Assembly: GCA_035279405.1 (NCBI GenBank)
Contig: DATEHU010000033.1
Coordinates: 1-64,000, forward strand
Length of the DNA: 64,000 nucleotides
Direction: 5' to 3'
Source of the DNA: Gammaproteobacteria bacterium
GTDB taxonomy: Bacteria; Pseudomonadota; Gammaproteobacteria; Natronospirales; REEB76
Each line of letters begins with the position of its first letter. The first letter of the stretch is position 1. The notes under the pieces were generated by a model that was given only the letters and a program-made list of their open reading frames with translations, had not been told where the DNA came from and did no database searches. The position numbers and the translations under genes are program-made. Below, piece by piece: positions 7,831 through 60,118 of this stretch.

Positions 7831-8571
7831 ATGGATGCGGATTTCCGTACCGAATTCAAACGCTCGACCGGCCTGCGGGCTCCCGCCTACATGCGCCTGC
7901 AGCGGCTGCTGCGCAAGAGACTGGCCGCCGGCGAGCTGGGTCCCGGCCAAGCGCTGCCGAGCGAACGCGATCTCGCGGAGCAGCTCGCGGTATCCCGTGT
8001 CACCGTGCGCAAGGCGCTCGCCGGGCTGGTACAGGACGGCGTGCTGATAGCGCGTCGTGGCGCTGGTACCTTTGTGGCCGAGCGCATCGTCAAACCGCTG
8101 TCCAAAATCACCAGCTTCACCGAAGACCTGCGCGCGCGCGGTTTAAACCCACGCTCGATTTTCCTGGAGCGTTCGCGTGGCGAAGTCACCCCCGAAGAAG
8201 CCATGGCGCTCAATCTGTCGCCCGGCAGTCGCGTGGTGCGCCTTTATCGCCTGCGCTACGCCGGGGATGCACCGTTGGCCGTGGAGCACAGTGCCATCCC
8301 GCAGGCCATTCTTGACGATCCCGCGCGCGTTGCCGACTCGCTGTACGCCGCACTTGAAGCGCTGGGTTGCCGGCCGGTACGGGCATTGCAGCGACTGCGC
8401 GCGGTGAATTTGAGTACCGAACATGCGCGTCTACTGCAACTGCCGCAAGGCAGCGCGGCGCTGGCGCTCGAGCGGCGCAGTTTTCTGGCCGACGGCCGGC
8501 TGGTGGAATTCACGCGTTCCTGGTATCGCGGCGATGCTTACGATTTTGTCGCCGAGTTGCAGGGCGAATAA
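7831..8571 (+). CDS. nagQ: GntR/HutC-family transcriptional regulator (NagQ-like)
   Basis: Encodes 246 residues. An N-terminal winged helix covers about residues 15-85: LPSERDLAEQLAVSRVTVRKAL, then LIARRGAGTFVAE. A C-terminal UTRA ligand-binding domain covers about 95-245. This is the HutC subfamily, which includes amino-sugar regulators such as DasR and NagR/YvoA. ATG 7831 starts the protein sensibly but has no ribosome-binding site. The predicted transcription start from the promoter at 7796-7824 falls on or next to the A of this ATG, so the mRNA may be leaderless. The stop is followed one base later by the nagB-II ATG, so it is the first gene of a gntR-nagB-nagA operon. The NagQ assignment is by context. 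Confidence 0.85.
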   Translation: MDADFRTEFKRSTGLRAPAYMRLQRLLRKRLAAGELGPGQALPSERDLAEQLAVSRVTVRKALAGLVQDGVLIARRGAGTFVAERIVKPLSKITSFTEDLRARGLNPRSIFLERSRGEVTPEEAMALNLSPGSRVVRLYRLRYAGDAPLAVEHSAIPQAILDDPARVADSLYAALEALGCRPVRALQRLRAVNLSTEHARLLQLPQGSAALALERRSFLADGRLVEFTRSWYRGDAYDFVAELQGE

Positions 8572-12034: not shown

Positions 12035-12451
12035 CGGCCGTGAGTGCGGCCGCGGAAGTCCGGAAAAGGCAACCACGGCGGCGTGCATCCGATGGCTACA
12101 GGTGGGAGCGATGCGCAGCTTCGCGCCGGTGTACAGGGATGTACACCCAAGGCAGGCGAGCGGAGCTGGATGCGTAGCGAGCCGACGAACTATCGATCAT
12201 AAATCAGCATAATGCTGAGGTCGGGTTAACGTTTGACTGCTTCTGAACCGAAATGATTTATTTTGAGTTGGTGGCTACGGGTGGGTTCGGAGCGAAGCTC
12301 CGAACGGGTTTACAGGGATGTAAACCCCGGACAGGTGGATTGTGCAGGAAAGCACAATCCATTGACGAATCCACCGACCTTATATCAGGAATAATGCTGA
12401 GGTCGGTTTAGAACCGTGGCAGTTCCATTCCCGGAAACAATCGGTAGGTAT
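12035..12451. repeat. Tandem hairpin array behind tRNA-Met, with copies of the tRNA 3' end
   Basis: No gene is seen in this 417-bp region. The clearest hairpins are 12285-12305 (9-bp stem, GAA loop), 12306-12327 (9-bp stem, GGGA loop), 12336-12361 (10-bp stem, AGGAAA loop) and 12128-12147 (8-bp stem, GGGA loop). TTGGTGGCTACGGGTGG, the tRNA 3' end, recurs identically at 12268-12284. A near copy, TGGCTACAGGTGG, lies at about 12093-12105. ATAATGCTGAGGTCGG (anticodon arm to T arm, opposite orientation) occurs at 12209-12224 and, one base longer, at 12391-12407. The region thus holds two diverged modules of about 120-140 bp, each bounded by tRNA-derived pieces. Confidence 0.8.
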
Positions 12452-12528
12452 TGGTGGCTACGGGTGGACTCGAACCACCGACCTCAGCATTATGAGTGCC
12501 GCGCTCTAACCAGCTGAGCTACGTAGCC
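12452..12528 (-). tRNA. tRNA-Met (CAT), elongator type
   Basis: On the minus strand the cloverleaf reads from 12528. It has acceptor GGCTACG paired with CGTAGCC, a D arm GCTC...GAGC, and an anticodon loop CTCATAA (anticodon CAT). The T arm is GGTGG-TTCGAGT-CCACC, the discriminator is A, and the CCA is encoded. The acceptor starts with a proper G-C pair rather than the initiator mismatch, so it is elongator tRNA-Met. Its 3' end is repeated in the downstream hairpin array. Confidence 0.95.
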
Positions 12529-58637: not shown

Positions 58638-59408
58638 ATGGAACACCGTCCCCGCAAGCGTTTTGGTCAGCATTTCCTGCACGACCGCAACGTCATCAGG
58701 AAAATCCTGCTGGCGGTCAATCCGCAGCCGGGAGACACACTGATCGAAATCGGTCCGGGCTTGGGCGCGCTGACGCTGCCACTGCTGGAGCGCTGCGGAC
58801 GGCTCACCGCCGTGGAACTGGATCGCGACGTGATACCGCGACTTCAAACCGCAGCGCAAGGCAAGGGCGAATTGCAAGTCATCCAGGCAGACGCGCTCAA
58901 AACGGACTTCGGTGCGTTCGCGCCGGCGGGAGGAAAGATCCGGATCGTGGGCAACCTGCCTTACAACATCTCCACGCCGCTCCTGTTCCACCTGCTGGAT
59001 TACGCCGCGGCCATTACCGACATGCACTTCATGCTGCAGAAGGAAGTCGTGCAGCGCATGGCGGCAAAACCCGGCGGTAAAGACTACGGCCGGCTCACGG
59101 TAATGCTCACGGCACGCTGCCGAGTCGAGCCGCTGTTCAGCATCGGCTCAGGCGCATTCACGCCTGCACCCAGAGTGGAATCGGCTTTTGTACGCCTGAC
59201 GCCATACATCACGCCGCCCTTCGAAATCGCCGACCGGGCGCACTTTGCGCAGCTCGTAAGCCAGGCCTTCAGCCGGCGGCGCAAGACCTTGCGCAATGCG
59301 CTCCGCGGGTTGCGGGACGACGCCGCCATCCGCGCGGCCGGCCTGGATCCCATGGCGCGCCCCGAAACCCTGAGCGCCGGTGATTATGCCCGCCTTGCGG
59401 CGCGCTGA
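58638..59408 (+). CDS. ksgA: 16S rRNA (adenine-1518/1519-N6)-dimethyltransferase
   Basis: Encodes 256 residues. RKRFGQHFLHD precedes the SAM loop IEIGPGLGALT, ELDRDV and the catalytic NLPYNIS. QAFSRRRKTLRNAL lies near the C-terminus. It dimethylates two adenines in helix 45 during 30S maturation. The start ATG 58638 has a ribosome-binding site derived from an extragenic repeat. Confidence 0.96.
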   Translation: MEHRPRKRFGQHFLHDRNVIRKILLAVNPQPGDTLIEIGPGLGALTLPLLERCGRLTAVELDRDVIPRLQTAAQGKGELQVIQADALKTDFGAFAPAGGKIRIVGNLPYNISTPLLFHLLDYAAAITDMHFMLQKEVVQRMAAKPGGKDYGRLTVMLTARCRVEPLFSIGSGAFTPAPRVESAFVRLTPYITPPFEIADRAHFAQLVSQAFSRRRKTLRNALRGLRDDAAIRAAGLDPMARPETLSAGDYARLAAR

Positions 59409-59469
59409 TCAGGCTGGTATCCGGACTCCACCTCCGTATACTTGGCAGGCCCGCACCCGGAGAATTGGC

Positions 59470-59907
59470 ATGAGCGGCTATCAGCACATTCTCACCGCCG
59501 TGGACCTGACGCAGGACAGCGAGGTCGTGGCACGCCGCGGCCGGGAGCTGGCCGAGCGCTTTGGCGCTAAGCTCAGTCTGCTGCACGTGGTGGAATTCAT
59601 CCCGGTGGATCCGGCCGGCGAGGCGCTGCTGCCGCCGCCGGTGGACGTGGATGGCGAACTGATAAAAGGCGCACGTCAGCGGCTAAGCGCCTTGTGCGCT
59701 AGTTTGGGTCTGCGAAACGCAAAGTCGCGCGTCGAAGTCGGCAACATCAAAGCGGAAATCCTGCGGGTGGTGGCCGAAGAGCAGGCTGACCTGCTGGTGC
59801 TCGGCAGTCACGGCCGTCACGGCTTGGCGTTGCTCATGGGCTCGACGGAAAAATCGCTGGTACATAAAGCGCCGTGTGACGTATTGGCGGTGAGGCTTAA
59901 TCCATAA
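59470..59907 (+). CDS. Universal stress protein (UspA family, ATP-binding type)
   Basis: Encodes 145 residues from ATG 59470 (GGAGAA at 59459-59464). The fold starts YQHILTAVDLTQDSE. The ATP-binding motif GSHGRHGLALLMGSTEKSLV is complete, unlike in non-nucleotide UspA. The end PCDVLAVRLNP is repeated as a separate piece at 60086-60118. It is inserted between ksgA and apaG, which are usually adjacent. A TATACT at 59437-59442 may be its -10. Confidence 0.9.
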   Translation: MSGYQHILTAVDLTQDSEVVARRGRELAERFGAKLSLLHVVEFIPVDPAGEALLPPPVDVDGELIKGARQRLSALCASLGLRNAKSRVEVGNIKAEILRVVAEEQADLLVLGSHGRHGLALLMGSTEKSLVHKAPCDVLAVRLNP

Positions 59908-60085
59908 CCGTCCCTGGCATGTCCACCATTCCAAACTTCCATGTTTGGCCGCTCGCCGGAGTGAAGCAGTACTTCGCCTGATGCACCGGCTCATCCTTGG
60001 TGAGCCAACCAGCCCGGCCTTACATGGCCGGGCGCTCGATCGGGCGGGAATGCCACCGGCATTCCCGCAGGAATCCCGATCTCGC
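59908..60085. repeat. Hairpin array behind the universal stress gene
   Basis: No gene is seen. Three hairpins are 59988-60006 (6-bp stem GGCTCA, 7-base loop), 60012-60033 (8-bp stem GCCCGGCC, loop TTACAT) and 60044-60068 (11-bp stem around ACC). None has a T-run. The array is followed directly by a copy of the stress gene's 3' coding end. The layout resembles the array behind tRNA-Met. Confidence 0.7.
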
Positions 60086-60118
60086 CCCTGCGATGTCCTG
60101 GCGGTGCGTTTGAGTTAG
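60086..60118 (+). pseudogene. Detached usp 3' end (PCDVLAVRL)
   Basis: Reading from 60086 the codons give PCDVLAVRLS and a stop at 60116-60118. The first nine residues equal the end of the stress protein at 59872-59898. At base level 7 of the 9 codons differ while the amino acids do not. It is therefore not a fresh duplication but a homologous end, either native and displaced or from a lost second usp gene. Confidence 0.7.

Follow-up and report, generated by a model that had tools for sequence, protein, structure and literature searches.

Hairpin-rich units behind a gammaproteobacterial tRNA-Met gene are best read as diverged rtT-type inserts closed by copies of the host tRNA end

Behind a tRNA-Met gene of a gammaproteobacterium stand two hairpin-rich modules in which pieces of the tRNA itself recur, and the question is what kind of element these modules are and how they came to be there. 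The window in which they lie is the whole stretch of DNA analysed here, 64,000 nucleotides of contig DATEHU010000033.1. A preliminary description of the locus suggested either a non-autonomous element with duplications like those of attachment sites or a structured RNA co-transcribed with the tRNA. The units sit in tandem on the 3' side of the tRNA, toward lower coordinates, and have the following parts.

12452..12528, minus strand: tRNA-Met (CAT), the host gene (ARAGORN and Rfam)
12451-12467, minus strand: repeated tail, the final 16-17 nt of tRNA-Met (sequence)
12269..12451, minus strand: unit 1, 183 nt, with spacer, inverted copy, degraded direct copy, hairpin cargo and tail copy (repeat search and survey)
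12408..12451, minus strand: unit 1 spacer, 44 nt (sequence)
12391..12407, minus strand: unit 1 perfect 17-nt inverted copy of the tRNA-Met anticodon/variable-loop region (repeat search)
12368..12390, minus strand: unit 1 loop and degraded direct copy of the anticodon/variable-loop region, CCACCGACCTTAT on the plus strand (sequence, Met-unit alignment)
12336..12361, no strand assigned: unit 1 hairpin, 10-bp stem, AGGAAA loop on the plus strand (stem search)
12306..12327, no strand assigned: unit 1 hairpin, 9-bp stem, GGGA loop on the plus strand, stem covarying between Met units (stem search, covariation)
12285..12305, no strand assigned: unit 1 hairpin, 9-bp stem, GAA loop, stem covarying between Met units (stem search, covariation)
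12268..12284, minus strand: unit 1 closing tail copy, 17 of 17 nt identical to the tRNA-Met 3' end (repeat search)
12090..12268, minus strand: unit 2, about 179 nt, more diverged, parts in the order of unit 1 (sequence, repeat search)
12208..12224, minus strand: unit 2 inverted copy of the anticodon/variable-loop region, a 17-bp perfect inverted repeat with 12478-12494 (repeat search)
12128..12147, no strand assigned: unit 2 hairpin, 8-bp stem, GGGA loop (stem search)
12089..12105, minus strand: unit 2 closing copy of the tRNA-Met 3' end, diverged (repeat search)

The repeat search recovered what the preliminary description had reported: TTGGTGGCTACGGGTGG, the complement of the tRNA-Met 3' end at 12451-12467, occurs again, identical over 17 nt, at 12268-12284, the altered tail noticed near 12093 is the diverged copy at 12089-12105, and 12391-12407 and 12477-12493 form a perfect 17-bp inverted repeat. 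The strong hairpins with GGGA, GAA and AGGAAA loops were found as perfect stems. The module size of 120-140 bp had to be corrected, as it leaves out the spacers and the true repeat period is 179-183 nt. The inverted piece ascribed to each module is present, but each also holds a degraded direct copy that had been overlooked. ATAATGCTGAGGTCGG is present at 12209-12224 and again at 12391-12406, and the longest match of unit 1 to tRNAs other than tRNA-Met is at most 8 nt. Within the 64-kb window there are 23 perfect stems of at least 8 bp, four of them in the two units, compared with 3-9 in all in block-shuffled versions of the same window. The fold of unit 1 is much more stable than that of its shuffles on both strands (z -6.2 and -8.1), and unit 2 folds moderately better than its shuffles on the plus strand (z -2.0). 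A UspA-like gene of the window (59380-59907, identified by reading) is also followed, immediately behind its stop codon, by a plain-class-like hairpin array at 59900-60090 that lacks a direct repeat.

Decades have passed since the rtT repeats of E. coli tyrT became known in the late 1970s, and they are usually regarded as a peculiarity of one operon in that species. A tyrT unit consists of a spacer, an inverted T-arm region, a GGTTCGA-like piece, GC hairpins and an exact repeat of the last 19 nt of tRNA-Tyr; Rfam assigns these units to RtT (RF00391), and the annotated K-12 small RNA rttR has its end precisely at the CCA of such a tail copy. The window units lie likewise directly 3' of a tRNA on its strand, are closed by the host 3' end (identical over 17 nt in unit 1, diverged in unit 2), carry at their head an inverted copy of the tRNA 3' region with a 17-nt perfect match in both, and repeat with a period of 179-183 nt against 178 nt in E. 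coli. Measured by score the outcome was negative, as the RtT model gave no match to the window units even at E up to 5, and the best score among five tRNA loci scanned in the source genome was 21.5 bits, below the Rfam gathering threshold of 45 bits. Formal membership in the Rfam family is thus rejected, and the units are rtT-type by anatomy, not RtT by score. They are best read as diverged rtT-type units.

This anatomy is not confined to E. coli and the present locus. Matches to the RtT model were obtained in 65 of 369 gammaproteobacterial genomes, in 23 of them above the cut-off. Thirty such loci were examined and 27 had a recognised tRNA nearby (Tyr, Gln and Ser tRNAs); the tail of the host itself recurred downstream in 23 of these 27, exactly in 19. 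In the source genome we searched for copies of the last 17 nt of each of the 43 tRNA genes within 1.2 kb, and an own-tail copy was found on the same strand, 116-382 nt downstream, in 13 of them (about a third), and upstream or on the opposite strand within that distance in none of the 43. The hosts include Met, Phe, Lys, Arg, Glu, Gly, Pro, two Leu and four Ser tRNAs, and a fourteenth case, Leu-CAG, was seen across two contig ends (L058 and L060). The two contigs concerned, C48 and C26, both terminate in the same 86 bp of the tRNA-Leu-CAG unit, which suggests that units also break assemblies and are likely to be undercounted. Under a stricter criterion, with neighbouring tRNAs masked, the own tail was found downstream of 30 of 247 tRNAs in six genomes, a figure that is no prevalence estimate because two genomes from outside the genus had been picked for their RtT matches; mismatched pairs of a gene with the tail of another tRNA gave 19 of 9092. 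Occupancy differed strongly between sister species in this survey (12, 2, 2 and 4 tRNAs), and orthologous tRNAs of sister species often have no unit. A GTDB-wide pattern scan for the Met module returned only the copy of a sister species and one match in Streptomyces. The preliminary description had made its interpretation depend on copies in relatives that stand at gene 3' ends, and units are indeed found behind many tRNAs, each closed by the 3' end of its host. Its overall interpretation holds in part; it lacked the relative in E. coli, the isotype-matched ends and the genome-wide scale. The open-licence literature yielded no previous description of isotype-matched tails across tRNAs, and nothing relevant on ACAGGGATGT hairpins or duplicated tRNA ends.

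The units measure 110-370 nt and hold no genes. The stretch that separates a tRNA from its tail copy holds GC-rich hairpins. Some units have loops of ATCC or TTCC and others of GGAT, so the cargo is present in either orientation. Two classes of units differ in where the identity of the tail sets in, sharply in both: at the 3' strand of the T-stem (position 61) or where the T-loop ends (59-60). An inverted tRNA-specific copy of 12-20 nt occurs in the Met, Phe, Lys, Ser and Arg units and some others, and is absent from a plain class of units. In Ser and Arg units (L089, L097 and L078) hairpins are nested inside hairpin loops, a pattern that insertion of cassettes into loops would give. The stem CAAAATCGC/GCGATTTTG has a short loop in Ser-TGA and encloses further hairpins in Arg-CCG and Ser-GGA. 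The anatomy of the tRNA units was also met at a protein gene of the source genome, where a hairpin array with a GTACAGGGATGTAC hairpin lies at the 3' end of an ABC-F gene, EttA-like by reading (contig C11, L241:3210-3415), is bounded by two direct copies of the end of that gene, CCGCATCGCATCAAATACCG, and has an inverted piece, GCGGTTGATC, like those of the tRNA units.

In three sister species tRNA-Glu-CTC runs directly into a short flank and the next gene, and in the source genome this native flank comes after the second tail copy; this is the one clear empty site, and for all units, some of them old, insertion is deduced from comparison of sequences. Cargo is common to units of different hosts, with 86% identity over 119 nt between Arg and Ser units, 91% over 81 nt between the units of two Leu tRNAs, 92% over 49 nt between the left ends of the Arg and Pro units, and 79% over 86 nt between a Ser unit of the source genome and a Tyr unit of another family. 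Behind tRNA-Arg-CCG two unrelated units stand in a row, each closed by the Arg tail. The empty site, the cargo common to several isotypes and the unrelated Arg units argue for repeated insertion or copying over plain tandem duplication, and local tandem duplication alone is rejected on account of the latter two. The Ala-GGC and Met units are common to several species and thus old, and at Ala-GGC the tail of the older unit has decayed. We consider it likely, with a probability of about 0.6, that the modules of the window are rtT-type inserts, produced when hairpin cassettes were repeatedly inserted or copied at the 3' ends of tRNAs. A unit of this type is an insert rich in hairpins and devoid of genes that separates the CCA end of the tRNA from its former downstream flank and finishes with a copy of the host's last 16-19 nt. 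A recombination or template-switching machinery would duplicate the target end while adding the cassette. The host tRNA would remain intact, older units would shift outward and decay, and the array would be transcribed through from the tRNA and cut at each CCA, by analogy with rttR of E. coli. Sequence comparison itself shows host-matched tails, a downstream position on the same strand, cargo that is common to isotypes and lies either way round, units that one sister species has and another lacks, with one clear empty site, and covarying stems.

Ordinary target duplication leaves the tRNA-specific inverted copy unexplained; fold-back template switching might yield it, and so might selection on RNA pairing. 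A purely local origin would begin with replication stalling at the tRNA hairpins: the 3' half would be copied first forward, then in reverse, then forward once more (A-B, reverse complement of A, A-B), with hairpin repeats building up later in the spare copy. One event of this sort gives both the tRNA-specific inverted copy and the direct copies, and some flanks behind the two tails do look alike. We nevertheless regard it as rather unlikely, as the plain class lacks the inverted copy, different isotypes have cargo in common, and the events would need to recur solely 3' of many tRNAs. Direct repeats of tRNA 3' ends are also the usual attachment sites of integration, and the units could be scars of integrative elements, left as attachment-site copies by tyrosine-integrase islands and later filled with hairpins. 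This agrees with the detached copies of the tRNA-Met 3' half, with T-loop hairpins, that flank a tannase gene in a sister species. However, such islands have a fixed recombination core, which would not be expected to give shared cargo flanked on each side by isotype-matched ends, and the lack of an integrase noted in the preliminary description was confirmed: the nine genes neighbouring the window locus serve housekeeping or chitin/amino-sugar functions, with no recombinase or integrase among them, and reading the ORFs in the contigs of the detached copies revealed no recognisable integrase. An origin as scars is accordingly distinctly improbable. The earlier suggestion of a non-autonomous element with attachment-site-like duplications survives in its insertion-like origin, in view of the direct-repeat geometry and the empty site. 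Simple attachment-site scars leave unexplained that cargo common to several isotypes always has ends matching the local tRNA.

In the sister species G001 the detached copies lie at L344:5894-6090 and 8175-8347, on either side of the tannase-like gene, and both continue into related sequence ending CAGTCA(C/G)TTAC(G/C)GC, so that they look like repeated attachment sites. The source genome has a displaced tRNA 3' half, GGTGCCGGCGGAGAGAGTCGAACTCCCGACC, with TCAGTCACTTACGGCGCTT behind it (contig C11, L340:1431-1524); TCAGTCACTTACGGCGCTT is also found behind one of the detached copies of G001, and at L340 this stretch could be, on the other strand, the C-terminus of an integrase.

It is a separate matter whether the units do anything as RNA. 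Two hairpins of the Met units covary, with a score of 0.458 against at most 0.127 for slid partners and 23 double-changed cells against 8.2 in shuffles in a small sample of eight related sequences, so that the structure is evidently maintained; this fits RNA function and recognition of single-stranded DNA hairpins alike. A scan of the array found no terminator-like site between tRNA-Met and unit 1 and one weak site within unit 2, making read-through from the tRNA promoter plausible. That rttR of E. coli ends exactly at the CCA of the tail copy keeps the earlier structured-RNA reading alive. The units could then be kept because their transcript matters: the inverted copy can pair with the tRNA 3' half, over 17 bp in the window, and would so affect folding, termination or processing of the pre-tRNA, and the released hairpin RNA would be a small regulator like rttR. 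RtT-family RNAs have been detected on Northern blots in Actinobacillus (PMC4986893), and the covarying stems and the unusually stable fold of unit 1 are in line with such a role. The empty orthologous tRNAs of sister species, the wide variation in cargo sequence and orientation, the decay of older tails (Ala-GGC) and the plain class with no inverted copy all count against it, and make selection for a trailer RNA a doubtful explanation of the units. Another functional reading starts from the plus strand, where ACAGGGATGT in the hairpins resembles the CsrA consensus, and sees in the array a CsrA/RsmA sponge, or else a site in the 3' UTR of the chitinase gene that lies upstream. TACAGGGATGTA is found in both units, GGGA and AGGAAA loops lie on the plus strand, and a gene for a family 18 glycosyl hydrolase (chitinase) stands upstream on that strand. 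The motif has only five exact copies genome-wide, no promoter-like site was found in the scan, and the GGA loops, opposite to the tRNA strand in the window, are on the tRNA strand in Ser and Arg units. With polarity differing between units and no promoter seen, a CsrA decoy RNA was rejected, and CsrA binding in any form is very improbable here.

The rtT-type reading gives a wider meaning to what had been a curiosity of one E. coli locus. Across many families of Gammaproteobacteria the anatomy recurs at tRNAs of many isotypes, with tails of the host tRNA and cargo common between hosts, and the repeat looks widespread and evidently mobile. This raises the question of which machinery copies hairpin cassettes to tRNA 3' ends while reproducing the target end, and of the role of the resulting tRNA-linked RNAs. 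A bolder and tentative proposal, for which we see some chance, is that tRNA genes serve as anchor and repeat of growing CRISPR-like arrays, in which a recombinase or reverse transcriptase would add structured hairpin cassettes beside the CCA of many different tRNAs in either orientation, duplicating each time the last 16-19 nt of the tRNA that is hit. The rtT of E. coli would then be a single relic of a mobile system that spans the class.

Among known systems, the repeat duplication by Cas1 in casposons and CRISPR has a repeat-insert-repeat geometry like that of the tRNA-tail units, and casposons insert next to tRNA 3' ends, duplicating about 15 nt of target (PMC4046053). In contrast to casposons, the units have no genes and no recognised terminal inverted repeats, and Cas1 (PF01867) is absent from all 11 genomes of the genus, which rules out Cas1 or a casposase as the current engine. 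Tyrosine-integrase islands have the direct repeat of the tRNA 3' end in common with the window units, which differ in their small size (110-370 nt), in having no integrase, also beside the would-be attachment site of the window locus, and in combining shared cargo with isotype-matched tails at both ends. REP/BIME repeats are, like the units, GC-rich hairpin arrays outside genes; we know of no REPs bounded by copies of the 3' end of a neighbouring gene. A likeness of some rtT-like elements to BIMEs has been noted earlier (PMC2965389). From the rtT of E. coli itself the window units differ in their host, tRNA-Met instead of the tRNA-Tyr of tyrT, in their duplicated tail of 16-17 nt instead of 19 nt, and in the polarity of their cargo loops, which is opposite to that in E. 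coli, with ATCC on the tRNA strand. RtT is further marked by the release of a discrete RNA of about 171 nt from the tRNA transcript. Unlike rtT at the tyrT locus (tyrT-tyrV-tpr), the units of the source genome stand at many different tRNAs, and the feature is real, non-random and of a known but little understood kind, with a tRNA host range far wider than is usually credited.
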